Shown here piece after piece: positions 15,246 to 61,167 of a DNA stretch of 64,000 bases. The position numbers were made by a program, and so were the translations under genes. The DNA is taken from IMG/VR virus record IMGVR_UViG_3300018080_000138, positions 1 to 64,000 of that record; one strand, given 5' to 3'. The notes below the pieces were generated by a model. The model saw nothing but the letters and a program-made list of their open reading frames with translations, was not told where the DNA came from and searched no databases. This DNA comes from a virus. Position 1 is the stretch's first letter. Every line of letters begins with the position of its first letter.

Positions 15246-16504
15246 TGAAAAAAACTGATAAAGAAATAATAAAGTTTATACAATCATACGTTATTGAAGA
15301 TAAGACATTATCTTCTGCAAAAATAAATGAAAAATTACAGGAAAAAGGATTTGCAATAGCTGAGCGGACAATTAGAAAAATAGTCGCAGCCCAAAAGTCA
15401 GAAATTAGAAAAAAAGAAAAAGATAAAGAAATGTCTTTAATGCTTGAGAATGAGCAGTTAAAGGCACGGACTAAAAGTTTAACAAAGGAAATATCTGATT
15501 TAAAAAATTATTCTTCAAAGCAACTTAATATAATTAATAAACTGCGGTATATTGTTCCAAAAATTCAACTTGTTGATTTTTGTAAAAAACAGGAAATTCC
15601 TAAACCTAAAACAAATAGAGGTGTATCTGAAGCATGCCTATTATTATCGGACTCACATATTGGTGAAACTGTTATTTATGAACAAATGGAAGGTTATAAT
15701 GAGTATGATTTTAATATTTTTTGTTCCCGTTTGTATTTATTAATTAGAGAAACTATTCATACTACATTACTTATGAGTAGTATGTCAAAGTTAGATACAC
15801 TAAATGTATTTATGCTTGGTGACATGGTAAGTGGTGAAATCCATGAAGAATTAATGAAAACAAATGAGTTAATGTCTTTACAAAGCTGTGCAATGGGTGC
15901 ATTAGTATTTGCACAAGCAATTATAAAATTATTAACTGTGTATAAAAAAATTAAAATATTTTGTGTTGTTGGTAATCATGGTAGAACAACAAAGAAAAAG
16001 GAAAGTAAATTTGGACATATTAATAATTATGATTGGATTTTATACCAGTTACTGAGATCATACTTATTAAATTATGAAAAGAAAAATTTAGTGGATTTTA
16101 TAATACCAGATAGCTTAGAAGCAATAGCCTGTATCTTAAATTATAGAATTCTTTACGGTCATGGTGATGCAATAAGAATGTTTTATCGCACACCATTTTA
16201 TGGTATAGAAAATGACAGTGCTAAGCAACAGCGTATGCGAAGATTAAACCATGGATTTGATTTTCGTGTTATGGGACATTTTCATGAGCAATCTAATTTA
16301 AAAAATGAAGTATTAATGAATGGTTCGATGATTGGTCCAAATGAGTATGGAAAGAATAAATTACATGAAGTTGCACCACCTGTACAAAAGTTTTTTGAGA
16401 TAAATGAAAAGTATGGTATTGGTTGGGAATTTAATTTTAATCTTACAAATGCCGATGAGCATGACTTTAAAATAAACATTGATGATACATTAAATATTTT
16501 ATGA
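15245..16504 (+). CDS. calcineurin-like phosphoesterase with N-terminal helix-turn-helix/coiled coil
   Basis: A 419-residue protein. The first 60 residues look like a helix-turn-helix (KINEKLQEKGFAIAERTIRKI), followed by a coiled coil to about residue 105. The catalytic part has all metallophosphoesterase motifs: DSHIGE, GDMVSGEIHEE, GNHGR, GHGD and GHFHE. Such proteins in phages are usually predicted DNA-associated phosphoesterases or nucleases. It lies at the boundary between tail and replication genes and overlaps the previous stop by one base. Confidence 0.8.
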   Translation: MKKTDKEIIKFIQSYVIEDKTLSSAKINEKLQEKGFAIAERTIRKIVAAQKSEIRKKEKDKEMSLMLENEQLKARTKSLTKEISDLKNYSSKQLNIINKLRYIVPKIQLVDFCKKQEIPKPKTNRGVSEACLLLSDSHIGETVIYEQMEGYNEYDFNIFCSRLYLLIRETIHTTLLMSSMSKLDTLNVFMLGDMVSGEIHEELMKTNELMSLQSCAMGALVFAQAIIKLLTVYKKIKIFCVVGNHGRTTKKKESKFGHINNYDWILYQLLRSYLLNYEKKNLVDFIIPDSLEAIACILNYRILYGHGDAIRMFYRTPFYGIENDSAKQQRMRRLNHGFDFRVMGHFHEQSNLKNEVLMNGSMIGPNEYGKNKLHEVAPPVQKFFEINEKYGIGWEFNFNLTNADEHDFKINIDDTLNIL

Positions 16505-16525
16505 TAATAACATCCCGGAGGACTT

Positions 16526-17017
16526 ATGAAATGTTCTGTTCCCAAGTTAAACGGGAAGTTTGGTAGAATTGTACCACATTATAAAAATAAAAAAATAGAC
16601 CATGTTTGTCTTGAAGGTAAATATCAAAATATTCTTTTGACATGCCAAGCTACTGTTACGTTTAAAAAAGGATATCTTTATTTTCGGATAAAAATAAATA
16701 AGAATACAAAGTATATAGCAGTGCATAGACTTGTATATGCATTTATACATGGGTACATACCAAAAACACACCATGTCCATCATAACGATGAAGATAAGTT
16801 AAACAACTTCCCAAAAAATCTAAAATTATTACTAATTCCAGTTCATATGAAGTTACATGGAAGGAATAAATCGGAAAAAACATTTACTGAGATAAAGAAA
16901 AAACAGGAAAAAGTATGTGATGTTTGTAAAAAATCACAACCTATACGTTTTTTTAAAGCCTTTAATGATACTTGTAAACAATGCACCAAGAAAGGTTTAA
17001 TTGCGGATGAATTATGA
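16526..17017 (+). CDS. HNH endonuclease with C-terminal zinc finger (probable homing enzyme)
   Basis: The 163-residue protein follows GGAGG at 16516-16520. Residues about 65-120 carry AVHRLVYAFIHGYIP, then HHVHHNDEDKLNNFPKNLKLL, the HNH core with the His-His and Asn spacing of phage HNH homing endonucleases. The C-terminus has CDVCKK and CKQC, a two-knuckle zinc site. It is a free-standing insertion between the phosphoesterase and helicase genes, as expected of a mobile intergenic homing gene. Confidence 0.82.
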   Translation: MKCSVPKLNGKFGRIVPHYKNKKIDHVCLEGKYQNILLTCQATVTFKKGYLYFRIKINKNTKYIAVHRLVYAFIHGYIPKTHHVHHNDEDKLNNFPKNLKLLLIPVHMKLHGRNKSEKTFTEIKKKQEKVCDVCKKSQPIRFFKAFNDTCKQCTKKGLIADEL

Positions 17018-18383
17018 AGAAACAATATTACAGTTAATAAACGATAAAAGCCCACTAAAACTATTTATAAAGGCAAGATTAAAAATAAAGCAACAATATT
17101 TTTCGGATAAGTTACACAGATTAATATGGAAGTTACTATGTAAGACATATGTTATTACAGGAAAATTACCTGGTGAAAAAGTTTTTTATGATATTGTTAG
17201 TAAGCTTGAAATTGACGATGAGTTAAAATCAAATGTAACTTATAGGTATAAGGAATTAACAACATATGGTAGTCCGGATAATGATGGATTTAATTATGCG
17301 TTGACGATGTTACCACAAGAGTATAATAAAAGAATGTATATAAGTATTCTAACAACGTCTATTGCGTGCATTGATAATAAGATAAAATTCTCTGGAAAGA
17401 TGTATGAAGGATTAGAACAATCAAAACAATATTTAATGGCAAGGCTTTCGGCTTTGCAGGCAAACATGGAGGTAGAACATTTTAATTTCAGTATGATGTG
17501 GAAAAACTTTTTATTAGCAAAAACACAAAAGAAAGTACCTGGTATTCTTTCTGGAATAGATTGTCTTGATAACTTAACACGTGGTGGTGATCCTGGTGAA
17601 GTATGGATTTTATTTGCCTTTGCAGGGGAAGGTAAATCAATGCTAACAGCAAATTGTGCCTATAATGCACGTATTAACCAGAAAAAAAATATAGTATTAT
17701 TTATTGGTGAAATGAATAAACAGATTTACGCAAGACGGTTACTTGTTAGACATTCATGGCATAATAAATTTGGATTAGAAGAAGGTTTTTTATACGATAA
17801 TATTAAATATGGTAAATTAGGAAAAGAGGATTCTATTCTATATAAAAAGATAATTAAAGATTTTATTAGTGGTGATTATGGTAAACTTAGATTAGAGTCT
17901 ATTCCAATGGGTGCAACACCTGAGTATATTTGGTTAAAACTTTGTGAGATTCAGCAAGAGTTCCCTATTGATGCAGTATATATTGATAGAGTTGAGTTAC
18001 TGTCATCTACACAAAAAAGAGCAAATATTCGTGTAGAATTAATGGAAATTCTTCAGCAACTTAGACAGCAAAGTTTAGATTTTAATAAAGGAAAGGGATT
18101 ATTTTATTTCTTAGTAAATCAAGTTGGTAGAGCTGCATGGAAGGAGGCTTTAAAAGTAGGTAGATATACTCTTGCAGATGGTGCTGAGACAGGAGAAATT
18201 GAAAAGACGGGTGATATTGTTATGTGGTTATTACGTGATAAGGATGTAACTGAGTTACAAAGAATAAAATTTGGGATTGCAAAGAATAGAGATGGAAAAG
18301 TGCTACCAGAGACATACCTTAAAACTTTATATGAAAGATCATTTATAGGTAACCTTGGTAAAGTAGATGAGGTAATTCTTTGA
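17007..18383 (+). CDS. replicative DNA helicase, DnaB-like
   Basis: I chose ATG 17007 rather than the in-frame TTG at 17001. The 458-residue product has an N-terminal helical domain like DnaB-N, then a RecA-fold helicase with Walker A FAGEGKS (residues 205-211), a Walker B-type strand DAVYIDRVELL, and a C-terminal region with the loop TGDIVMWLLRD and KNRDGKVL, matching DnaB/gp41 arginine-finger and K-N-R-x-G motifs. It unwinds DNA 5' to 3' at the fork. It overlaps the HNH gene by 11 bases. Confidence 0.88.
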   Translation: MNYEETILQLINDKSPLKLFIKARLKIKQQYFSDKLHRLIWKLLCKTYVITGKLPGEKVFYDIVSKLEIDDELKSNVTYRYKELTTYGSPDNDGFNYALTMLPQEYNKRMYISILTTSIACIDNKIKFSGKMYEGLEQSKQYLMARLSALQANMEVEHFNFSMMWKNFLLAKTQKKVPGILSGIDCLDNLTRGGDPGEVWILFAFAGEGKSMLTANCAYNARINQKKNIVLFIGEMNKQIYARRLLVRHSWHNKFGLEEGFLYDNIKYGKLGKEDSILYKKIIKDFISGDYGKLRLESIPMGATPEYIWLKLCEIQQEFPIDAVYIDRVELLSSTQKRANIRVELMEILQQLRQQSLDFNKGKGLFYFLVNQVGRAAWKEALKVGRYTLADGAETGEIEKTGDIVMWLLRDKDVTELQRIKFGIAKNRDGKVLPETYLKTLYERSFIGNLGKVDEVIL

Positions 18384-23983: not shown

Positions 23984-24340
23984 ATGTATATTATATCAAA
24001 AGAAGTAATAATATCAGCGGCACATTGGTTAGATTTATCATACGAGTCAAAGTGTTCTGAGGTACATGGGCATAATTGGAAAATAAAAGTTATTTGTTGT
24101 AGTGATGAAGTAAATAGTAATGGTATGGTAATAGATTTCACAAAAATAAAAACTATAGTAAATCAGTATGATCATTCAACAATTAATCATACACTTAGTA
24201 ATCCTACAGCTGAAAGGCTTGCACGTGTACTTTGTAGTGATATACCATTTTGCGTTGCCGTAGTTGTTGAAGAAACAGAAGGAAATAAGTCTATTTATAT
24301 TGATCCTGAATGTCCATCCTGTATAAAGGTAATAGTATGA
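23984..24340 (+). CDS. queD: QueD, 6-carboxy-tetrahydropterin synthase
   Basis: The 118-residue protein is of typical QueD length. Zinc ligands H14, H28 and H30 are seen in AAHWLDL and VHGHNW, the catalytic Cys is C24, and the active-site Asp-His appears in YDHSTIN. A C-terminal E-E-T motif also fits. It converts dihydroneopterin triphosphate to 6-carboxy-tetrahydropterin, the second step to preQ0. It belongs to the 7-deazaguanine island with queE, queC, folE and dpdA. Confidence 0.93.
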   Translation: MYIISKEVIISAAHWLDLSYESKCSEVHGHNWKIKVICCSDEVNSNGMVIDFTKIKTIVNQYDHSTINHTLSNPTAERLARVLCSDIPFCVAVVVEETEGNKSIYIDPECPSCIKVIV

Positions 24341-24672
24341 TAAATAAAATAATACAATATTTTTCACATCCAACAGTAAAAATACCTATAAGACATAAAA
24401 AACAACTAAAAGCAAGATTTGATTATACCAATCTTGTACGTAATTATAATTTTGTAGATGAGGTTTATGAAATAGAAATTCCATGCCCATTGTGTTTAAC
24501 ATATAGCAACTGTCCTAAAAAATCTACATGTTCTGAATGTCCATTTCATAAATATGATCAAAGGTATACTGGTTGTGATGCTTTTATTCATAAAGCAATT
24601 AAAGATAAGGTAGTGTTTAGTACTAATTTTTATAGTGTGTTTCTTGCAAAAAAGACATTAAAAAAGGAATAA
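24337..24672 (+). CDS. zinc-finger protein of a phage paralogous family (copy 1)
   Basis: ATG 24337 overlaps the queD stop. The 111-residue product has KIPIRHKKQLKARFD near the start, then CPLC, later C-x5-C-x2-CPF and a TGCDAF segment, giving a conserved Cys pattern shared with genes at 50767, 57139 and 60820. Its frame ends at TAA 24670, but the conserved C-terminus continues in the -1 frame to 24731, after an A-AAA-AAG slippery sequence. Function unknown; a metal-binding or nucleic-acid-binding role is plausible. Confidence 0.65.
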   Translation: MINKIIQYFSHPTVKIPIRHKKQLKARFDYTNLVRNYNFVDEVYEIEIPCPLCLTYSNCPKKSTCSECPFHKYDQRYTGCDAFIHKAIKDKVVFSTNFYSVFLAKKTLKKE

Positions 24673-24731
24673 AGCAATTAAAAATGCTTAATAAATATGC
24701 AGAGAAACATATTGAATGGATAAACGATTAA
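24660..24731 (+). other. possible -1 frameshift or indel extending the zinc-finger protein
   Basis: A AAA AAG lies at 24660-24666 in the proper phase of the upstream gene (codons TTA AAA AAG GAA TAA). A -1 slip enters a frame open to TAA 24729 and adds 21 residues (GIKQLKMLNKYAEKHIEWIND part), giving a 131-residue product whose end matches that of the paralogue at 57139-57489 (ending KAKEYIEWV). This is either programmed frameshifting or a one-base loss in the A run. Confidence 0.5.
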
Positions 24732-24764
24732 GTTATATCAAAGAATAAAAAGGAATTATTAGAT

Positions 24765-25322
24765 ATGACTGTTGACAATGGCGATATTATTCTTCAAATG
24801 AAGTCCGGCAATTTAAAGATTACGAGACAAAAACATATAGCAAGTGACTTTGTTATTACACCTGATTGGTGTGCTAAAGATATTATTACATATTTTAAGC
24901 CTACAGGAAAAATTCTTGATCCATGTAGAGGAGAAGGTGCATTTTATAAATCTATACCACAGGGTTCATATTGGTGTGAAATCCGGCAAGGAAAAGATTT
25001 TTTTGATTTTAATAAGAAAGTAGATTGGATAATAGGTAATCCACCTTATTCAATATTTGATAGGTGGTTAATGCATAGCTATGATATTGCCGATAATATT
25101 GTATACCTTGTACCAACCTATAAAATATTTAACCCTCTTGGCATAATAAGAATGATAAAAAGTAGAGGGCATGTAAAACATCTTAGAATTTATGATGTTG
25201 GTAGAAAAATTCCATGGGCACGTGGGAGACCAATAGCTGCAGCCTATATTAAAAAAGGATATTATGGACCAATGGAATGGTCATTTTATAAACAAGAAGA
25301 TGAATTTTTTACAGATAAATAA
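24765..25322 (+). CDS. DNA adenine-N6 methyltransferase-like protein
   Basis: The 185-residue protein has a SAM-binding motif I of the form ILDPCRGEGAF (residues 50-60) and the catalytic NPPY at 92-95 (IIGNPPYSIFD), with motif order I then IV typical of N6-adenine methylases. It is short and lacks an obvious target recognition domain. It would methylate adenine in DNA, possibly together with the guanine modification made by the adjacent island. Confidence 0.82.
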   Translation: MTVDNGDIILQMKSGNLKITRQKHIASDFVITPDWCAKDIITYFKPTGKILDPCRGEGAFYKSIPQGSYWCEIRQGKDFFDFNKKVDWIIGNPPYSIFDRWLMHSYDIADNIVYLVPTYKIFNPLGIIRMIKSRGHVKHLRIYDVGRKIPWARGRPIAAAYIKKGYYGPMEWSFYKQEDEFFTDK

Positions 25323-25362
25323 TTAACATATGGTTTATATTTTTTGGTGAGGTACTGTAATA

Positions 25363-25761
25363 ATGAATATTTATTGTATTAATTGTAAATTTTTTGTCGT
25401 GAGGAATGCTCGTAGGGGAATTACAGGATGTTGGAAGATGAAAGAATCAGCCATCCCATTAAATTATCTGAAACCTATTGATAAGTTTAAGCCTATGGTG
25501 CCAGATAATGTTGACTATCCAAATAAAGAAGGTAATTGCAAATTTTATCAGAGAAAGTGGTGGAAATTTTGGGTAAGAAGGGTTCGTGCAGAAAATAGAA
25601 GAGACGGTTTAAAAAGTACCATGGATAGCCCAAAAAGTATTATGAATAGTTCGAAAGGTGTTCAAGAGAATATACTTGTATATACCTTGACACCAACTGA
25701 TGCCCCGGGTTATTTATATGACCCATCACAGATAAATAGTAGAGGAATATATAATGAGTAA
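25363..25761 (+). CDS. small Cys-containing hypothetical protein
   Basis: The 132-residue product starts CINCKFF and has further Cys at GCWKM and NCKFYQ, a spacing that could bind zinc. A basic, Trp-rich stretch (KWWKFWVRRVRAENRR) follows near residue 65, then a Ser/Pro-rich tail that looks disordered. No family is recognised. GTGAGG upstream of ATG 25363 serves as ribosome site. Confidence 0.5.
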   Translation: MNIYCINCKFFVVRNARRGITGCWKMKESAIPLNYLKPIDKFKPMVPDNVDYPNKEGNCKFYQRKWWKFWVRRVRAENRRDGLKSTMDSPKSIMNSSKGVQENILVYTLTPTDAPGYLYDPSQINSRGIYNE

Positions 25762-25876
25762 TAAATGTATTGTACATGGTTGCAGTAATCATAAGGATGA
25801 AAGGGGAAGTTTATTGGTGACATGTGTGGTTAAAGGTGTTTTAACCGTGCCTTATCTTAAGGTTTGGAGGATATAG
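25754..25876 (+). CDS. very small Cys-containing protein
   Basis: A 40-residue frame from ATG 25754 to TAG 25874-25876, overlapping the end of the previous gene and preceded by AGAGGAA at 25741-25747. The start MSNKCIVHGCSNH resembles a zinc-knuckle opening, followed by a strand-rich hydrophobic part. The tight packing between two genes supports it; function unknown. Confidence 0.45.
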   Translation: MSNKCIVHGCSNHKDERGSLLVTCVVKGVLTVPYLKVWRI

Positions 25877-25880
25877 AATT

Positions 25881-26393
25881 ATGAGTATATGGTTTACCGC
25901 AGATACACATTTTGGACATAAAGGTATAATTAAGTGGTGCGGACGACCATTTGATACACTTGAAGAAATGGACAGTATATTAATAAGTAATTGGAATTCA
26001 ATGGTAAAAGAAGTAGATGTTGTTTATCATCTCGGTGACTTTGCATTTGGTAAACAAAAAAAGTATTTAAAAAAATTGAATGGTAGAGTAATATTAATAA
26101 AAGGAAATCACGATAAAGGCATCGATAAGTTAGTTGGCAAGTATGGATTGATGGAAGTATGTGATGTGAAGTATATAGTATATAAATCTGCACAAATTTA
26201 CATGTCCCATTATTCTCATAGAGTTTGGAGGAATTCATGCCATGGTAGCTTTAATTTATATGGGCATAGTCATGGAAAGTTACCTTTTTTTAGGAATAGT
26301 TGGGATGTTGGTGTGGATAATAATAATTTTTATCCAATAAGTTTTTATCTTTTACGGAGAAAGATTATCACAGAAAATCATTATTTAAAGTAA
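25881..26393 (+). CDS. calcineurin-like phosphoesterase
   Basis: The 170-residue protein has all core metallophosphoesterase motifs: ADTHFGH at residues 7-13, YHLGDFAFG near 50, KGNHDKG near 73, MSHYSH near 109 and LYGHSHG near 126. The length and motif spacing match a group of small phage and bacterial phosphoesterases of unknown substrate. It lies between the methylase and queE, so a link with nucleotide or nucleic-acid modification is possible but unproven. Confidence 0.88.
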   Translation: MSIWFTADTHFGHKGIIKWCGRPFDTLEEMDSILISNWNSMVKEVDVVYHLGDFAFGKQKKYLKKLNGRVILIKGNHDKGIDKLVGKYGLMEVCDVKYIVYKSAQIYMSHYSHRVWRNSCHGSFNLYGHSHGKLPFFRNSWDVGVDNNNFYPISFYLLRRKIITENHYLK

Positions 26394-26420
26394 TTAGTAC
26401 TAATTAAAGGAATAAATTAT

Positions 26421-27002
26421 TTGTATAAGATAAGTGAGTTATTTTATTCTATCCAGGGCGAAGGACATCATACCGGGATGCCCGCTGTGTTTATACGATT
26501 TTCTGGGTGTAACTTACATTGTAGTTATTGTGACACTAAATATCATACGGAAGGAAGTAATCTTTTATTGCAATGTATATGTAATGAGATATCTAAGTAT
26601 GATACAAAACATGTTGTTTTGACAGGTGGTGAGCCTTTTTTACAGATAGATAGTGAATTATTAGTTGAACTTGAAAAAAAACATTATCTCATCCATGTTG
26701 AAACCAATGGAACAATTAATTTTAGGGATAAGTTCCCTGATGGATTAATACATTGGATAACTGTCTCACCAAAAAAACATGCTGAACCAATAATTACCAG
26801 TGCAGATGAATTAAAAGTAGTAACATCTGTTCCATATAATGATGTGGATTGGTTATTTCATCTACAAAATACTATTAAGTGCAGATATTATTTTATTCAG
26901 CCAGAGTCAGAAAAGAATATAGATACAGTAATTAAATTTGTTAAGGATTACCCTACATTTAGATTAAGCATACAGGTTCATAAACTTTTAAATATTTTAT
27001 AG
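26421..27002 (+). CDS. queE: QueE, 7-carboxy-7-deazaguanine synthase
   Basis: The start is TTG 26421 after AAAGGA at 26406-26411. The 193-residue radical SAM protein has SIQGEGHHTG, the CxxxCxxC cluster as GCNLHCSYC (C30, C34, C37) and VVLTGGEP. The short core and C-terminal IQVHK motif are typical of QueE. It converts 6-carboxy-tetrahydropterin to 7-carboxy-7-deazaguanine, the third step to preQ0. Confidence 0.93.
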   Translation: MYKISELFYSIQGEGHHTGMPAVFIRFSGCNLHCSYCDTKYHTEGSNLLLQCICNEISKYDTKHVVLTGGEPFLQIDSELLVELEKKHYLIHVETNGTINFRDKFPDGLIHWITVSPKKHAEPIITSADELKVVTSVPYNDVDWLFHLQNTIKCRYYFIQPESEKNIDTVIKFVKDYPTFRLSIQVHKLLNIL

Positions 27003-27016
27003 AGGAATATAACATA

Positions 27017-27421
27017 ATAGATAATAGTTTTTACAAACCGACACTACAAATAAAATTCGGTGTAGAAGGTAATTGCTTAGCCGCATGTATTACTACTTTA
27101 TTCGATGTGAGTATAAACGATGTACCAATGTTCTCAAGTTATTGTTGGGAATTTGAGTTAACAAAATGGTTTTCTGATAGATATGATTTATTTGTTGTGG
27201 CAATTAAGGCCAATAATAAAGATGATGTTAATCTTTTTGAAGATAGTTTAATTATTGCAACTATTAACTCAGACCACCCAAATATTGAGCGGCATGCTGC
27301 CATTACAAAAGGAAATAAAATTGTATTTGATTCAATGGTAGGTGAGGTTAATTTAGAAATAACTAAGGAAATGGATATAACTTATTTTATAATTAGTAAT
27401 ATTAGAAGGATGTGCAGATGA
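27017..27421 (+). CDS. small C39-peptidase-like/DUF protein, apparent ATA start
   Basis: The first ordinary start in this frame is GTG 27107, but the frame is open upstream and encodes KPTLQIKF followed by GNCLAACITTLFDV and NDVPMF, the conserved N-terminus of a small phage family with a catalytic-like Cys. Only ATA codons (27014, 27017) are placed correctly 7-10 bases after GAGGA (27002-27006), so I infer ATA initiation. The fold resembles C39-like cysteine peptidases. It sits between queE and queC. Confidence 0.6.
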   Translation: MDNSFYKPTLQIKFGVEGNCLAACITTLFDVSINDVPMFSSYCWEFELTKWFSDRYDLFVVAIKANNKDDVNLFEDSLIIATINSDHPNIERHAAITKGNKIVFDSMVGEVNLEITKEMDITYFIISNIRRMCR

Positions 27422-27768
27422 AAGTAATTATTGCAGGATCAAGACAAATTGATGACTATAATATTGTAGTGGAAGCTATAAATGAGTCAGAATTTTGTAT
27501 AACAGAAGTAGTATCTGGTACAGCGCGTGGTGTAGATAGTATTGGAGAGGAATATGCCATGATACACAACATTAAAGTAAAAAAATTTAAACCAATGTGG
27601 AATCTTTATGGAAAAAAAGCTGGTATTTTAAGAAATATTAAGATGGCAGAGTATGCTGATGCCTTAATTGCTATTTGGGATGGAAGTAGTATTGGAACAA
27701 AACATATGATAGAATTTGCAAATGAAAGAGGTTTAAAAGTGCACACAAAAATTGTGGAGGATACTTAA
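27418..27768 (+). CDS. DUF2493/SLOG-type nucleotide-binding protein
   Basis: I chose ATG 27418, seven bases after AGAAGGA; an in-frame GTG lies at 27412. The 116-residue product has the family signature: KVIIAGSRQIDD at the start, then VVSGTARGVDSIGEEYA, and DALIAIWDGSSIGTKHMI. The GSR and SGxARGxD motifs define the DUF2493 (YspA-like) SLOG fold, thought to bind nucleotides. It lies directly before queC within the deazaguanine island. Confidence 0.85.
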   Translation: MKVIIAGSRQIDDYNIVVEAINESEFCITEVVSGTARGVDSIGEEYAMIHNIKVKKFKPMWNLYGKKAGILRNIKMAEYADALIAIWDGSSIGTKHMIEFANERGLKVHTKIVEDT

Positions 27769-27770
27769 AA

Positions 27771-28517
27771 ATGCACGATAAAAACGTATTATTATATAGT
27801 GGTGGTCTTGATAGTTTTTGTCTTCATTATATTTTAACAAAAAAAGGTATAGAACATGATCTTTTGGTGGTCTTAACAGGAACAGATGATAATTATATCG
27901 AAGTGGAAAGAGCATTTAAATATATTAATGAACCTATTAATACTACATGTATTTTGTTAGACAAGTTTGAGTTGCAGAATAAAATAGTTCCCCTTAGAAA
28001 TGCATTATTTATTTTAGCTGCCGCAAATTTTGGAAATAAAATTTATTTTGGTAGCACAGTAGATGATGTACCAAAGGATGGTGATTATATCTTTAAGTCG
28101 ATAATGGAGACATTGCTTAATTACTATGGTAGTGATAGAAATGGTGTGTCAGAAGACATGGGATACCCATATGAGATAATAATGCCATTTAAGGAGTATA
28201 CAAAGGCAATGATTATACAGGAATATTTGAACTATGGTGGTCATATAGACGGTGTATTATATACATCGTATAGTTGTTATAAAGGAAGTAAGAAGCCATG
28301 TGGTATATGTACTCATTGCTTAAGAAAGTTTGTTGCATTACTTGTAAATGGTATTGATGTGGGCATCAATTATTATGAAAATGATCCAAAACTTAAATTA
28401 CTTGATTTTTATAGGGAAGCCTCTCATTTTCATAGAAAGGAGGCTCCCGATATTTGTGGTGCACTTGATATATGTAAAATTGAATATGAGTTGGAGGACA
28501 TTGTAGATGTTAAATAG
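27771..28517 (+). CDS. queC: QueC, 7-cyano-7-deazaguanine (preQ0) synthase
   Basis: The 248-residue protein has the PP-loop SGGLDS at residues 10-15, RNALFILAAA, YFGSTVDD, and the zinc site formed by SYSCYKG and CGICTHCLRK. It uses ATP and ammonia to make preQ0 from 7-carboxy-7-deazaguanine. It is a plain QueC without a fused amidotransferase domain. It overlaps folE by 11 bases. Confidence 0.93.
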   Translation: MHDKNVLLYSGGLDSFCLHYILTKKGIEHDLLVVLTGTDDNYIEVERAFKYINEPINTTCILLDKFELQNKIVPLRNALFILAAANFGNKIYFGSTVDDVPKDGDYIFKSIMETLLNYYGSDRNGVSEDMGYPYEIIMPFKEYTKAMIIQEYLNYGGHIDGVLYTSYSCYKGSKKPCGICTHCLRKFVALLVNGIDVGINYYENDPKLKLLDFYREASHFHRKEAPDICGALDICKIEYELEDIVDVK

Positions 28518-29415
28518 TAGTAAAATAATTAATGTTGAGTACGGAGACATTAAAAAGTTTTCATTTGTAATGGCAAGACAAATAGTTGAAAAAAGTATTA
28601 AGGTGTCAAGTGTATATCCAATAAATCTTGAGTCATTTACATTCGCAGCCGCGTTGAGTAGATGTTTAAAGGTACCAATTGTGTTTAATCGTCGGAAGGA
28701 TTCATTGTCTGCATATATTGTGCAGACTGGACCGATAGTTAGTATGGATAAATCACATGCTGTGTTACTTGTTACTGATAAGGATAAAATAAATGTTCCG
28801 AATTTATTTTATGGTTTGGATTATTCAACTATTAACAATCCAAAATTTGTATTTCCATGGTCAGAAGTATTTTCTCCGGAAAAAAAGATATCTGACATAA
28901 TCTCATATATTGGTGATGACCCTACAAGAAGCGGTTTAGTAGAGACACCGAGGCGCGTTGTAAATTCATGGAAAGAGTTGTATAGTGGTTATGGTATTGA
29001 TCCAGTATCTGTAGTGAAATTATTTGATATTGATACTAATATGGATGAGATAATTGCAATAAAGAATATTGAGTTTTATTCAACATGTGAACATCACATG
29101 TTGCCATTTTATGGAAAGATTTCCGTTGGGTATGTTCCTAATAAAAAGATAATTGGTATTTCAAAGATACCAAGGTTAATAGAAATATATGCACGTCGTT
29201 TACAGATTCAGGAAAATTTAACATCTCAGATAGCCAATATATTATTTGATATGTTAAAACCAAAAGGTGTTATGGTAGTATGCCATGGAAAGCATTTGTG
29301 CATGGTTCAAAGAGGCGTAAAAAAGCAGGATGGCTGGATGGTAACGAGTGCCGTACTTGGTATCTTTAAGACTAACCCACCAATTAGGGCGGAATTTATG
29401 GAGATAATTAAATGA
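28507..29415 (+). CDS. folE: GTP cyclohydrolase I with extra N-terminal phosphoribosyltransferase-like region
   Basis: Residues about 125-302 are FolE: DDPTRSGLVETPRRVVNSW, the zinc motif STCEHHMLPF (C194, H197), IGISKIPRLIE, and GKHLCMVQRG (C265). It makes dihydroneopterin triphosphate from GTP, the first step to preQ0. The first 120 residues are additional: PINLESFTFAAALSRCLKVPIVF, a HAVLLVTDKD strand and an FPW motif near 116-118 resemble a degenerate guanine/xanthine phosphoribosyltransferase. Usual FolE is about 180-220 residues, so this is a fusion. Confidence 0.9.
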   Translation: MLNSSKIINVEYGDIKKFSFVMARQIVEKSIKVSSVYPINLESFTFAAALSRCLKVPIVFNRRKDSLSAYIVQTGPIVSMDKSHAVLLVTDKDKINVPNLFYGLDYSTINNPKFVFPWSEVFSPEKKISDIISYIGDDPTRSGLVETPRRVVNSWKELYSGYGIDPVSVVKLFDIDTNMDEIIAIKNIEFYSTCEHHMLPFYGKISVGYVPNKKIIGISKIPRLIEIYARRLQIQENLTSQIANILFDMLKPKGVMVVCHGKHLCMVQRGVKKQDGWMVTSAVLGIFKTNPPIRAEFMEIIK

Positions 29416-30215
29416 GAATATATTTTGTTGCTGGTGGTAAGTGGTATTTAAAATGGCCTGTTTTAATGGATAATACAAAAAATATTCTTATTAGTTATCA
29501 TTATGCAAAGAATTGTGTTGATGAACTTAAGTCAATAGATAAAAATATTTTTATTGATAGTGGTGCGTTTAGTGCATTTAATCTTAATAAGGAAATAAAC
29601 TTAGATAATTATTGTAAATTTATTAAGGAAGTAGGAGGAAAAGTATATGCTGCACTTGACGTTATTAGAAATCCACAGCAAAGTATCGATAATTATCGGT
29701 ACATGAAAGAAGTGCATGGATTGAATTCTATCCCTGTATTTCATTATAATGAACATATTAAATACCTTAGGATGATGTTGGATGAGGATGTAAGTTATAT
29801 TGGTATTGGTAGTACATTTCAACGTCTTCGAAATTTTAATATATGGTTGGATAGTGTTTGGTCAATTATATTAAGGTATAGACCTGATATAAAAGTACAT
29901 GGTTTTGGTGCAACTAATTGGAATTTAATACAACGATATCCGTGGTACTCAGTAGATAGCACTACATATTTATCACCACAAAGATTTGGCCGTGTTAATC
30001 ACTATGTAAAGACAAAGAAAATTTTTATCCAATTGTCATTAAGAAAATTTGCTGTATTAAAAAAGTTAGACTATGATAAAGAATTTTCTAAGGTTAAGAG
30101 TATGGGTGTTATTCATACAATTAAGTCATATGAGAGACTTGTTGCTGACATTACTGAAAGTAATAAGGTAAAAAATTTTAGTTATTTAAAAAATAGTAAA
30201 GATTTTTTTATGTAG
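29412..30215 (+). CDS. dpdA: DpdA-like DNA guanine transglycosylase
   Basis: The 267-residue protein overlaps folE by 4 bases. Its plan matches phage DpdA, a TGT paralogue: FIDSGAFSAFN near residue 50, a Y-x-A-LDVIRNP strand, PVFHYNE, GIGST, KVHGFGATNW and YSVDSTTYL. DpdA replaces guanine in DNA by a 7-deazaguanine (preQ0 or a derivative) to block restriction. Together with the preceding que genes it completes a self-sufficient DNA modification pathway. Confidence 0.87.
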   Translation: MRIYFVAGGKWYLKWPVLMDNTKNILISYHYAKNCVDELKSIDKNIFIDSGAFSAFNLNKEINLDNYCKFIKEVGGKVYAALDVIRNPQQSIDNYRYMKEVHGLNSIPVFHYNEHIKYLRMMLDEDVSYIGIGSTFQRLRNFNIWLDSVWSIILRYRPDIKVHGFGATNWNLIQRYPWYSVDSTTYLSPQRFGRVNHYVKTKKIFIQLSLRKFAVLKKLDYDKEFSKVKSMGVIHTIKSYERLVADITESNKVKNFSYLKNSKDFFM

Positions 30216-30225
30216 AAGGTTATTT

Positions 30226-32322
30226 ATGTTATTTCCTGGTATGGAGAAATATTTTTTTAGTGGAAAGAATTTGACGTGGTTATATAACGCAAATTTTTAT
30301 GAGTATAATACTGACGATGGTAGATATGCTGTAGAATATATGTTAGGTAGGTCTAAGGGAATTCCAATAAGTCTTGATACCGAAACTACTGGACTAAATA
30401 AGATGAAAGATAGAATTATTGGAATATCTTTATCAGTTGTTCTTGATAATGTAATTAAATCTGTATGGATACCGATAAGTGAGATAGACAATTTACAGTC
30501 ATTTCTTTGTAGGTTGTTCCGCACAACCGTGGTTATGCACAATAAAAAATTTGACCTATGTATGATTCAAAATGAGGGTATTGATGTTGATGAACTTGGG
30601 TTTACATCTGTTATAGTTGATACAATAATTTTATGTTATTATATGGATCCAGATGGTGAAGTAAACCTTGATTATATGACAAAAAAGTTACTAAAGAGAC
30701 AGACAATTAAATATTCTGACCTTAAGACTGCGTTTGGTGGATTTATTCCTGCACCTAAAAATATTAAAAAGTTGTATGCTTGCCAGGATTCTATGAATAC
30801 ATTAGAGTTATACTTTTGGATAGAAGAGAATAGAAGTGATTTGTTGAAAAATAAAGCCGTGATTATTACAAATGAAGTAACAGATATTTTACGACGGATG
30901 GAAAGACGCGGGATAAGAGTGGATGTAGATTTTTTAAAGAATGCTGAGAAGTCATTAAAGAAAAAGCTTTTTAGTGTTGAGAAAGAAATTTATAAATTGG
31001 CTGGTAAACGATTTAATATTTCATCTGATGATCAGGTAGCAGATGTTCTTTTTAATAAATTGCGGTTACCGCCGACTCGTTTGACTGGAAAGAAATTAAG
31101 ACCATCAGTTGCTGAGAAGTATCTCAAGCCATTAAAAAAGAAACATAAAATTGTAGAAAAAATATTATATTACTCAGAATTGGATAAAGCATGTGGTACG
31201 TATGCGATAGGATTGCAGAAACATATAGTTGATGGATTAGTCCATACATCTTATAACCCTGTTCGTACTGGTACAACAAGATTATCCTCTGATGAACCAA
31301 ATCTTCAAAATTTACCAAAGTTTGGTGCGTTAAATATTAGAAACGCATTTATTCCCAGGAAGGATCATTATTTTATAAAAGCAGATTATAGTCAGATAGA
31401 ATTAAGAATTTTTTGTTATATGGCTAAAATAACACAGGCTATAAATATCTTTGAGTCGGGTGGTGATATCCATGCCAAAATGGCAAGTTGGATATTAAAA
31501 GTACCGGAGAAAAATGTTACTGAGGAGCAAAGAAAGAGAATAAAGACTATTAATTTTGGTATTATATATGGTATGTCAGAATATGGTCTTGCAGCTAACC
31601 TTGGTATAAGTGTTGCTGCGGCGGTTGGGTTATTGTCTGATTATTTTAGAATATTACCAGGTGCTAAATCTTATATAGAAAGTGAGATAAAAATTGCAAG
31701 AAAACTTGGGTATGTTGACTTAGCATATGGTGGACGGCGGTTAGTTAAAGGCATTAATTCAAAAGTTGATAAAGTGAGAAGTTATGCAGAAAGAATTTCT
31801 GTAAATACAAGGATACAAGGAATTGCCGCTGAGATAATGAAAATTGCATTGATTAGGTGTGCCAGATATTTGAAGAAGATTTCCGCAAATATTTATTTAA
31901 TCGCAACAACACATGATGATATTTTATTTGAGGTTCATAATAAGATTAGTTTTAAGGACGCAACGACTATTCTTAAAAAATGTATGGAATTCTCAATAAA
32001 TACAAAGATGTTAAAGATGCCTTGTATCCCAATTGATTCAGAGTTTGGAAATAAATGGGGTGAACTTAAAGAAGTAAAAAAGAAAAAACCTAATACTAAT
32101 CATAACTTATCTGAGTTTAGTAGAATTGTTTTTAAGTTTAATACATTAACTGAAGATGATATTGTGTATCTAAAGCGTTTGCAATCTTTTAATAATGGAT
32201 GTTCAGTACCTGGTTATTTAGGGTATAATGGGCGGTTAATAAATTTGAGGTGTCATTACAATAATGACTCAATAATAAGAATAAAAAAAACATTGGATTG
32301 TACAGTTATAGGTAAAAAATAG
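30226..32322 (+). CDS. family A DNA polymerase with 3'-5' exonuclease
   Basis: A 698-residue Pol I-like replicase. The exonuclease has SLDTETTGL (D51, E53), an N-K-K-FD motif and CQDSMNTLEL. The polymerase has motif A DYSQIELR (D387), motif B KRIKTINFGIIYG and motif C THDDILFEV (H563-D564). No 5' nuclease domain is present. About 75 residues follow the usual C-terminal end (after EFGNKWGELKE), a basic linker and a globular-looking extension whose role is unknown. It probably replicates the phage genome. Confidence 0.95.
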   Translation: MLFPGMEKYFFSGKNLTWLYNANFYEYNTDDGRYAVEYMLGRSKGIPISLDTETTGLNKMKDRIIGISLSVVLDNVIKSVWIPISEIDNLQSFLCRLFRTTVVMHNKKFDLCMIQNEGIDVDELGFTSVIVDTIILCYYMDPDGEVNLDYMTKKLLKRQTIKYSDLKTAFGGFIPAPKNIKKLYACQDSMNTLELYFWIEENRSDLLKNKAVIITNEVTDILRRMERRGIRVDVDFLKNAEKSLKKKLFSVEKEIYKLAGKRFNISSDDQVADVLFNKLRLPPTRLTGKKLRPSVAEKYLKPLKKKHKIVEKILYYSELDKACGTYAIGLQKHIVDGLVHTSYNPVRTGTTRLSSDEPNLQNLPKFGALNIRNAFIPRKDHYFIKADYSQIELRIFCYMAKITQAINIFESGGDIHAKMASWILKVPEKNVTEEQRKRIKTINFGIIYGMSEYGLAANLGISVAAAVGLLSDYFRILPGAKSYIESEIKIARKLGYVDLAYGGRRLVKGINSKVDKVRSYAERISVNTRIQGIAAEIMKIALIRCARYLKKISANIYLIATTHDDILFEVHNKISFKDATTILKKCMEFSINTKMLKMPCIPIDSEFGNKWGELKEVKKKKPNTNHNLSEFSRIVFKFNTLTEDDIVYLKRLQSFNNGCSVPGYLGYNGRLINLRCHYNNDSIIRIKKTLDCTVIGKK

Positions 32323-47775: not shown

Positions 47776-48654
47776 ATGTTTATCCCATATCAGGACGTTG
47801 AGAGGTTGGGTAACAGTGAAGTTGAGGGAATTCTCAATGGAAAATGTTATATTTTTCCAAAGTTGGATGGTACATGTTCATCATTGTGGTATAATAATGG
47901 TATACAGGCTGGCAGTAGAAGAAGGCAGTTAAGTATTCATAGTGATAATAGAGGATTTTATAAATCCACCTCTACTAATATTAGATTCATGAAATTGTTT
48001 AAAGAATACCCTAATCTCATGTTATATGGTGAGTGGTTAGTTCTGCATACTATTAAGGATTACCTTGACTCTGCATGGGGAAAGTTTTATGTGTTTGATA
48101 TATTGAAAGTCGGTGCTTCAACACTAACCTATTTGCCATATATTCTATACGAGGATATCCTTGTAAAGTTTGGTATTGATTTTATTCCATGTATTGGTGT
48201 GTTGGTTGACCCAACAATTGATGATGTGAAAAAATATCTTGATAAAAATACATATTTAATGAAGAAGGGGTATGGGGAAGGTATTGTCATTAAAAATTAT
48301 GATTTTGTCAATAGGTATGGAAGGACGACATGGGCAAAATTAGTTAGGGATGAGTATAGTCATGAAAATCGCAGAAAAAAGAAAAAAGTGGATAAGTCCT
48401 TTGTGGAAGAAATGATAGTTGAGAAGTTTGTTTCTCGTCATCTTATCGATAAAGTCTATGCTAAGATATGTAGTGATAATGGTGGGTGGAGTAGTAAATT
48501 TACCCAACAATTGTTGAATACGATATTTTATGATTTAGTGAGGGAAGAATCATGGAATATGGTTAAAAAATTTAAATATCCAACAATTAATTATAAGGTA
48601 TTAAAGGCTGTAACATTTAGTAGGATAAAAGTAATTAAAAAAGAATTGTTTTAA
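47776..48654 (+). CDS. RNA ligase, Rnl2/DraRnl-like nucleotidyltransferase
   Basis: The 292-residue protein has motif I FPKLDGTCSSLW (Lys 29, the adenylation site), motif III-like MLYGEWL, motif IIIa FDI, motif IV GEGIVIKNYD and motif V TWAKLVRDEY. The C-terminal 90 residues form a helical domain. It would seal nicked RNA, for example tRNAs cut by host anticodon nucleases; DNA or mRNA capping roles are less likely. Confidence 0.87.
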   Translation: MFIPYQDVERLGNSEVEGILNGKCYIFPKLDGTCSSLWYNNGIQAGSRRRQLSIHSDNRGFYKSTSTNIRFMKLFKEYPNLMLYGEWLVLHTIKDYLDSAWGKFYVFDILKVGASTLTYLPYILYEDILVKFGIDFIPCIGVLVDPTIDDVKKYLDKNTYLMKKGYGEGIVIKNYDFVNRYGRTTWAKLVRDEYSHENRRKKKKVDKSFVEEMIVEKFVSRHLIDKVYAKICSDNGGWSSKFTQQLLNTIFYDLVREESWNMVKKFKYPTINYKVLKAVTFSRIKVIKKELF

Positions 48655-50563: not shown

Positions 50564-50767
50564 GTGAAATTGAATATAAGCATAGAAATAGATGACTTAG
50601 ATGATCGAACCTGTGGTGAGCATTGTCCATTTTTGCAGGATGATGAGTGTTTACTTTTTTCCTGTGATTTAGAAGAAACTATCTTACCTAAGAATCATGT
50701 TTGGCAAGATGGTGTTAGTCCAACCAGGCAGAGAACTTATCGATGTTTAACATTTGGAGTAGAGTAA
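50564..50767 (+). CDS. small Cys-rich protein
   Basis: The start is GTG 50564 with AGGGG at 50553-50557. The 67-residue product has CGEHCPF, DECLLFSC and RCLTFG, six Cys in all, with the CPF element also present in the zinc-finger family. It probably binds zinc. It ends at the first base of the next gene start. Confidence 0.55.
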   Translation: MKLNISIEIDDLDDRTCGEHCPFLQDDECLLFSCDLEETILPKNHVWQDGVSPTRQRTYRCLTFGVE

Positions 50768-51204
50768 TGTATAAGATTCCAATTTATTTTAGAAGCAAGT
50801 TAAAAAGAAGGTTTAATGAGAATTTATTAATCTATACAGAGGGTGTAGTTAGGCGGATTGATGGACAATGTCCTTTATGTAAGGTTTATCGTAAGTTAGG
50901 ATATTGTCAATTATGCCCATTTGTTACTGGGCATAATTGTGCGCATTTTGTAGTTGCTAATGTAAAGAAGGATTATACTGATGGTAAGATATTAATTAAA
51001 CTTAACCTTGATGGATTTTCCATTCCAAATGCTTCTATGGAAGAAGGGAAAAAGATGATAATAAGTTTGAAGAAAAATGCAAAGAAGCAAATTAGATGGA
51101 CATTTGGTAGAGAGTCACTAAGATTATATTTTAAGGATTTTGTAAGTTTTGTAGAAAAACTTATGGATTGGATAAGTTATGATATACCGGCACGTTATAC
51201 GTAG
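50767..51204 (+). CDS. zinc-finger protein of the paralogous family (copy 2)
   Basis: I chose ATG 50767, overlapping the previous stop. The 145-residue product has YKIPIYFRSKLKRRFNE at the start, then CPLC, YCQLCPF and TGHNCAHF, the Cys pattern shared with 24337, 57139 and 60820, and a long helical C-terminal extension not present in the others. Role unknown. Confidence 0.6.
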   Translation: MYKIPIYFRSKLKRRFNENLLIYTEGVVRRIDGQCPLCKVYRKLGYCQLCPFVTGHNCAHFVVANVKKDYTDGKILIKLNLDGFSIPNASMEEGKKMIISLKKNAKKQIRWTFGRESLRLYFKDFVSFVEKLMDWISYDIPARYT

Positions 51205-56927: not shown

Positions 56928-57115
56928 ATGAAGACATTACCTACAAAGAAAGAAGTCGATGAGTTTTATGCCGCATATGGTACTACTAATTTTTATGTAA
57001 TGGATGCCGATAAAAAAGTAAAAGAAATTCTTACACAGCTATATAAAGAGGGTTTTTAACCAAGGCCTCATTTACAAAGGTTGTACTGAAAAATATTAGG
57101 GATATGAACGGTTAA
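56928..57115 (+). pseudogene. frameshifted paralogue of the 55616 gene
   Basis: ATG 56928 follows AAGGAG and encodes 43 residues (LPTKKEVDEFYAAYG and TQLYKEGF) to TAA 57057. The matching C-terminal part continues in another frame at 57065-57115 (ASFTKVVLKNIRDMNG), parallel to FKKMVLNNLNIL in the intact gene. A short indel around 57050-57065 would join them. Confidence 0.55.
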
Positions 57116-57138
57116 ATAGTATAGTTAGTGGAGATGGT

Positions 57139-57489
57139 ATGAGAAAAATAAAAATACCTATAAAGTATAAGGAACAATTAGAGGCAAGATTTGATCCAAA
57201 AAACCTTATTTGTGATTTTTCAACAAATAATTATTACATTAGAATTCCATGTCCATTATGCGAGGATTATGGAGGTAATTTGGTTTGTAGTAATTGTCCA
57301 TTTCGTGAACCTATAGATTTATGCAAAGTTGATAGTTCTTGCGGGGGTTTTGTTGAAGACATTATTGGTTTACCTAAATTTTCTTGGACAAAAGCAGACA
57401 TAATAATACATAAGACATTATATAATCAGGCTGTTGAGCAATTAATTGAACTCAGAAGTAAAGCAAAGGAGTACATTGAGTGGGTATAA
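57139..57489 (+). CDS. zinc-finger protein of the paralogous family (copy 3)
   Basis: The 116-residue product reads KIPIKYKEQLEARFDPKN, then IPCPLCEDY, CSNCPF, a Cys near GG-F-V, and ends KAKEYIEWV. It is the best full-length match to the frameshifted copy at 24337. GTGGAG precedes ATG 57139. Function unknown. Confidence 0.65.
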   Translation: MRKIKIPIKYKEQLEARFDPKNLICDFSTNNYYIRIPCPLCEDYGGNLVCSNCPFREPIDLCKVDSSCGGFVEDIIGLPKFSWTKADIIIHKTLYNQAVEQLIELRSKAKEYIEWV

Positions 57490-60780: not shown

Positions 60781-60819
60781 TGATAAAAGTATTAATTATA
60801 TTACTAAAGAGTAAATAAG

Positions 60820-61167
60820 ATGACTAAGCTAATTTTACCGAGTAATTTTAGAAGTATTACCATAAAAAGATATGACCCAGTATTTTCTGTAAAGGTGTAC
60901 GATGATTTATTGGGTATAAAAATTAGATCATCTATATGTGATTTGTATTTAAGGGATGTCAATTGTTCGTTATGTCCTTTTAATCAGTTTGTTGTACAAA
61001 GAACTGGTTGTATAGAGTTATTTAGGACTATTTTGGGTGAAAAGTTGGCATTTAGTGATAGATTATCCGGGGTATTTTGGTTTAGTTATATGTCGGATAA
61101 GGTTATTCCACAACTTGAAGTAATAAGAAATTTTTTTGAGTATGATGTTGTATGGTATAAGGTATAG
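60820..61167 (+). CDS. zinc-finger protein of the paralogous family (copy 4, divergent)
   Basis: The 115-residue product has SICDLYLRDVNCSLCPF and RTGCIELF, retaining the C-x2-CPF and TGC elements but having lost one Cys of the CPLC motif. It is the most diverged member. Function unknown. Confidence 0.55.
   Translation: MTKLILPSNFRSITIKRYDPVFSVKVYDDLLGIKIRSSICDLYLRDVNCSLCPFNQFVVQRTGCIELFRTILGEKLAFSDRLSGVFWFSYMSDKVIPQLEVIRNFFEYDVVWYKV

Follow-up and report, generated by a model that had tools for sequence, protein, structure and literature searches.

The window analysed here covers positions 1-64,000 of a virus record of 96,708 bases, which has no end repeats and may be incomplete. Positions 23984-30215 hold an island of genes, all in + orientation, among which a small number of short unassigned open reading frames are interspersed. 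The island starts with queD (23984..24340, 118 aa, Pfam PTPS 1.4e-20), encoding 6-carboxytetrahydropterin synthase, and continues with a small NPPY DNA methyltransferase gene (24765..25322, phrog_799 9.5e-29), a calcineurin-like phosphoesterase gene (25881-26393), queE for 7-carboxy-7-deazaguanine synthase (26421..27002, 1.9e-36 to phrog_2076, the PHROG QueE family), a variant queC recognized by profile and motifs (27771..28517, Pfam QueC 1.2e-12), folE (28507-29415) and dpdA for a putative DNA guanine transglycosylase (29412..30215, phrog_887 1.2e-46). The folE frame combines an N-terminal domain that appears to be a degenerate xanthine-guanine phosphoribosyltransferase (XGPRT; 28507..28863) with a GTP cyclohydrolase I domain (28879..29412, residues 125-301, Pfam 1.4e-68). 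The queC and folE frames share 11 bases, and those of folE and dpdA share 4. A family A DNA polymerase gene (30226..32322, + strand, Pfam 1.4e-104), similar to those of Queuovirinae, follows directly 3' of dpdA as context outside the pathway. The preliminary description had located the five pathway genes correctly, and each enzyme gives a strong family profile match; the adenine methylase and the phosphoesterase that it mentioned are likewise present. The methyltransferase is a candidate pathway partner by its position inside the island only. The SLOG/DUF2493 gene between queE and queC (27412-27768) was considered as a pathway component and set aside as context, since apart from this phage only Vibrio AL-2 has it in the vicinity of dpdA.

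Several further genes were recorded in passing. A small Cys-rich family (PCPLC...CPF) has four paralogues in the window (24310-24672, 50719-51204, 57100-57489 and 60808-61167), the first of which overlaps queD, and an RNA ligase-family gene lies at 47776-48654 (Pfam 1.7e-14). Beyond the window, record positions 92815-94038 (15816-17039 of locus L003) encode a DUF6395 protein whose Cys cluster resembles that of QueC; its gene lies within a glycan-type gene group at ca. 62-94 kb that also contains a DegT aminotransferase, WbqC, an epimerase, a radical SAM/SPASM protein and glycosyltransferases.

By gene content, the island falls within the known FolE-QueD-QueE-QueC-DpdA class. These five genes recur as a set in dozens of additional phage contigs, which excludes chance assembly. 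The placement of folE-dpdA shortly upstream of a DNA polymerase is the Queuovirinae arrangement, seen also in 9g, CAjan, HD01 and VpKK5, with dpdA adjoining clamp and polymerase genes in 9g, CAjan and HD01. The dPreQ0 island of CAjan and other Seuratviruses shares FolE, QueD, QueE, a QueC without GAT domain and DpdA with the window, as well as folE-dpdA near the polymerase, but differs in gene order and in carrying a putative preQ0 transporter. The same five functions are encoded within one operon in the dPreQ0 island of Rosebushvirus (Rosebush, Laurie), in the different order dpdA-queC-queD-queE-folE. The dG+ island of Enterobacteria phage 9g has an alignable DpdA and folE-dpdA followed by clamp and polymerase, but encodes a Gat-QueC and makes archaeosine, whereas the window record has no GATase. 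The absence of QueF, ArcS-like and amidotransferase-fused QueC genes, previously noted for the window, extends to the full record: profiles for GATase-6, ArcS (DUF5591) and the Vut_1/YhhQ preQ0 transporter found nothing across the 96,708 bases of this possibly incomplete record, and the sole match of the QueF profile was FolE itself. In CAjan and Rosebush, gene content without an amidotransferase leads to dPreQ0 (PMC6884629).

The conserved features of four of the five enzymes are in place. QueD displays the active-site residues AAH, C-x3-HGH, YDH and EE by eye, QueE carries the radical SAM motif CxxxCxxC, and FolE conserves the zinc ligands C194, H197 and C265 and scores 225 bits against the NCBIfam folE equivalog (cut-off 181.6). 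QueD reaches 80.1 bits against an NCBIfam cut-off of 89.25, and the NCBIfam QueE models match at up to 1.1e-39, all under their cut-offs. QueD, QueE and QueC thus all score below the NCBI equivalog cut-offs, which we counted against the interpretation given below. The active-site motifs were previously described as intact throughout; this holds for QueD, QueE, FolE and DpdA but fails for QueC, where YxQxHxxE and YPDC are missing.

The window DpdA resembles phage enzymes that act on DNA. It is 31-36% identical to the DpdA proteins of 9g (36%), CAjan and HD01, and a tblastn search with it matched 230 phage records, with 9g-type DpdA found down to E 2e-28. Residues D49-S-G, D83, H111, H163 and D182 are conserved, the catalytic acids D49 and D182 being invariant. 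Direct hhalign comparison with E. coli TGT aligned the DSGGF motif alone (E 0.007) and the relation to TGTs was therefore examined by fold search. The best PDB matches of the DpdA model are archaeosine and queuine TGTs (archaeosine TGT 1j2b, E 9.9e-7); the C-terminal third of the model is poor and the protein is short, two points that likewise count against the interpretation. Together with the 9g and CAjan alignment, these matches bear out the earlier assignment of the protein to the TGT superfamily. Neither FolE nor DpdA of the window had a close relative among viral contigs in a single-sequence scan. The same four biosynthetic steps also feed queuosine, and phages with the pathway but without DpdA have been proposed to raise queuosine in host tRNA (PMC6884629), so that the island might serve host tRNA instead of modifying DNA. 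We regard this as very improbable, given that the window DpdA belongs to the type by which phages modify DNA, that in the alignment it lacks the region bearing the C-terminal zinc motif of E. coli TGT and that dpdA lies near queC at almost every locus. With high confidence, the locus can be read as a modification island.

Some variation around dpdA was observed in other phages. In MT835482.1 (8680-10878 of L008) the dpdA frame is broken by a large, intein-like in-frame insertion, and locus L017 has a tandem pair of dpdA-like genes, at 1975 and 2880. A ParB-like gene lies immediately 5' of dpdA in many islands (3018-3506 of L004 and like open reading frames at about 20 loci; 1-458 of L071), and the gene before dpdA in Laurie is annotated as ParB-like.

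The QueC of the island belongs to a divergent group lacking residues of the canonical active site. Canonical QueC proteins share the motifs SGGxDS, YxQxHxxE, VPxRN and YPDC and a zinc motif, and the E. coli enzyme is inactivated by Y35A, R99A, Y131A and Y189A (PMC13329287). The window protein retains SGGLDS (SGGxDS), PLRN (PxRN), K165 and the zinc cysteines C(x)7CxxCxxC (SCYKGSKKPCGICTHC), while both YxQxHxxE and YPDC are replaced. It scores 43.8 bits against the NCBIfam QueC equivalog TIGR00364 (cut-off 150.3), with QatC as a weak second NCBIfam match. In contrast, the QueC proteins of CAjan, with YGQRH and YPDC, and of Rosebushvirus, read in Laurie as stand-in for Rosebush and Qyrzula, possess all canonical motifs. 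Scanning with five variant QueCs as queries identified 55 viral loci through QueC alone, and 51 of these encode dpdA within the retrieved locus DNA. Among 48 distinct variant sequences none keeps Y35 or Y131, while E42, R99, N100, D133 and K165 never vary; most have lysine at position 134, giving D-K in place of YPDC, and the window has glycine there (D-G). The variant is scarce among 50,697 phage records, of which E. coli QueC matches 303. Bacteroides is among the hosts of its carriers, as are Phocaeicola and Tannerellaceae for carriers found in genome contigs. The same variant adjoins dpdA in human gut phage MT835752.1 and Bacteroides phage BS162P1; MT835752.1 differs from the window in its order dpdA-queC-queD-queE-folE and in an unfused FolE. 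Variant sequences cluster in the QueC tree, the backbone of which is weak and the window branch long, so that single-clade status is unsupported by the tree.

Given its conservation and its association with dpdA, the variant enzyme is predicted to be probably active, and its product is the main question raised by the locus. The earlier proposal of deazaguanine DNA modification holds for the phage-encoded route and DpdA; its further statement that preQ0 itself is the DNA base is made less certain by a QueC that, unlike those of CAjan and Laurie, is devoid of YxQxHxxE and YPDC and scores this far below the family cut-off (43.8 versus 150.3 bits). Our literature search found no product measured for variant-QueC phages, for which reason preQ0 can be called only the likeliest base, at about an even chance. 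The second choice would be a CDG derivative produced by the variant QueC, either ADG or another. An enzyme that halts at the amide (ADG) or couples CDG to another amine, leaving a DNA base other than preQ0, is a substantial possibility that we rank below an even chance. Loss in all 48 sequences of Y35 and Y131, both essential in E. coli QueC, combined with invariant D133, R99, N100, E42 and K165, points to a remodelled and conserved pocket, and the QueC relatives QatC, the weak second match of the window protein, and Cap9 conjugate proteins using CDG. However, the gene content of the island equals that of dPreQ0 phages, an aligned tyrosine at position 39 in 34 of the 48 sequences may replace Y35, and the window protein itself has D-G rather than D-K.

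The second unusual feature, missing from the preliminary description, is a domain of about 120 extra residues at the N-terminus of FolE; CAjan FolE has no such phosphoribosyltransferase (PRTase)-like domain. Searched as a single sequence against Pfam, PDB and phages it gave no credible match, and the AlphaFold model of FolE, with pLDDT below 50 over residues 1-121, was left out of the fold search. Compared with a profile of 68 intact PRTase domains, it reaches 7.8 bits, above the 6.9 bits of the best of 1,000 shuffles (hhalign P 5e-4), which suggests remote homology. It aligns co-linearly with the PRTase motifs, in a comparison that included E. coli Gpt, and shares the FPW junction, where FPWE has become FPWS. 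The PRGG loop is replaced (GIPRGG to YPINLES), as is the PRPP loop DDxxDSGxT (DDIVDSGAT to AYIVQTGPI). A lineage-specific extension unrelated to PRTases would fit the missing Pfam match, the low AlphaFold confidence and pairwise scores against PRTases that are weak when taken alone. We consider it quite unlikely in view of a profile score exceeding every shuffle, the shared site before FolE, the co-linear motifs and the common FPW junction. We read the window FolE as a probable descendant of an XGPRT-FolE fusion in which the N-terminal domain is a decayed copy. If it is a PRTase, the domain is very probably inactive, having lost the PRPP-binding residues.

Intact versions of this fusion are encoded in many related phages. 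Among loci found through QueC, an intact PRTase precedes FolE in two FolE lineages, and other such loci have a separate PRTase gene just 3' of folE; the separate PRTase annotated beside QueC in Menderavirus Ps15 is unlike PRTases in sequence and was left out of this count. A search with a DNA pattern for the domain junction, of which dpdA was not part, found at least 80 stretches (L074-L153), and among the matches listed at least 67 encode the fusion with a PRPP motif. Where at least 2.5 kb is available on both sides, again among the matches listed, DpdA, QueD and QueE are present in 23 of 23 cases and a detectable QueC in 14, in a sample that is non-random and includes near copies. The remaining nine islands encode DpdA, QueD and QueE with no detectable QueC and therefore may have CDG as the inserted base or depend on a QueC that is host-encoded or unrecognised. 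The fused domain also matches 31 phage records, at the GTP cyclohydrolase gene wherever this is annotated. Quinobequin-P09, VpKK5 and PSASB_03 resemble the window in having a purine PRTase N-terminal to FolE in a que/dpdA island, but differ in that their PRTase loops are intact where those of the window are decayed. In all three the fusion lies beside que genes; dpdA is next in VpKK5 and PSASB_03, and Quinobequin-P09 has a gene annotated as hypothetical at that place. In the cultured phages Quinobequin-P09 and VpKK5 the XGPRT domain is unannotated, and in all three phages the gene is named just GTP cyclohydrolase.

The fused domain belongs with the xanthine-guanine PRTases, as indicated by PDB profile matches at 5e-11 and a match to E. 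coli Gpt at 1.9e-16. From this specificity class, the fusion itself and its co-occurrence with the pathway, a role in guanine salvage in the relatives appears somewhat probable. In the main alternative, the domain could join PRPP to the deazaguanine itself and make nucleotides. The precedent is tubercidin synthesis, where TubE is a purine PRTase proven on CDG and PRPP (PMC6112128) and is paired with the GTP cyclohydrolase TubC, and the fusion resides in a CDG-making operon. TubE and TubC, however, are separate proteins of an antibiotic pathway rather than of DNA modification, and a nucleotide route would be unneeded because DpdA inserts free bases. DpdA accompanies every well-flanked fusion among the matches listed, the closest profiles are those of xanthine-guanine PRTases, and some relatives have a separate PRTase right after folE instead, leaving nucleotide formation improbable.

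We infer modification of the phage DNA, and the identity of the base, from the observed gene set, order, overlaps, homologies and motifs. In the proposed pathway, GTP would be converted by FolE, QueD, QueE and the variant QueC in turn to a 7-deazaguanine base, which DpdA would exchange for guanines in phage DNA. Each insertion would free one guanine, and each base made would consume one GTP. In the relatives, XGPRT could convert the guanine released by DpdA to GMP, to be remade into GTP for FolE. A phage operon for 7-deazaguanine synthesis and DpdA-mediated exchange, with a FolE derived from a fusion, is in our assessment the best explanation of the locus as a whole, and quite a probable one. 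More tentatively, and on balance doubtful, the two features may be joined: the variant QueC would make a 7-deazaguanine other than preQ0 for DpdA and XGPRT-FolE would close the guanine cycle, the window combining the variant QueC with a decayed fusion. While the island class is known, the literature searched holds no description of the QueC subgroup or of the XGPRT-FolE fusion.

The modified DNA would probably protect the phage from host restriction enzymes. For a considerable number of phages, among them some of gut Bacteroidota, gene content fails to reveal the DNA base, because their dpdA-linked QueC subgroup is missing residues regarded as essential in preQ0 formation. The fusion of a guanine-salvage enzyme to GTP cyclohydrolase in DpdA phages suggests how a phage that removes many guanines may pay for the replacement base.
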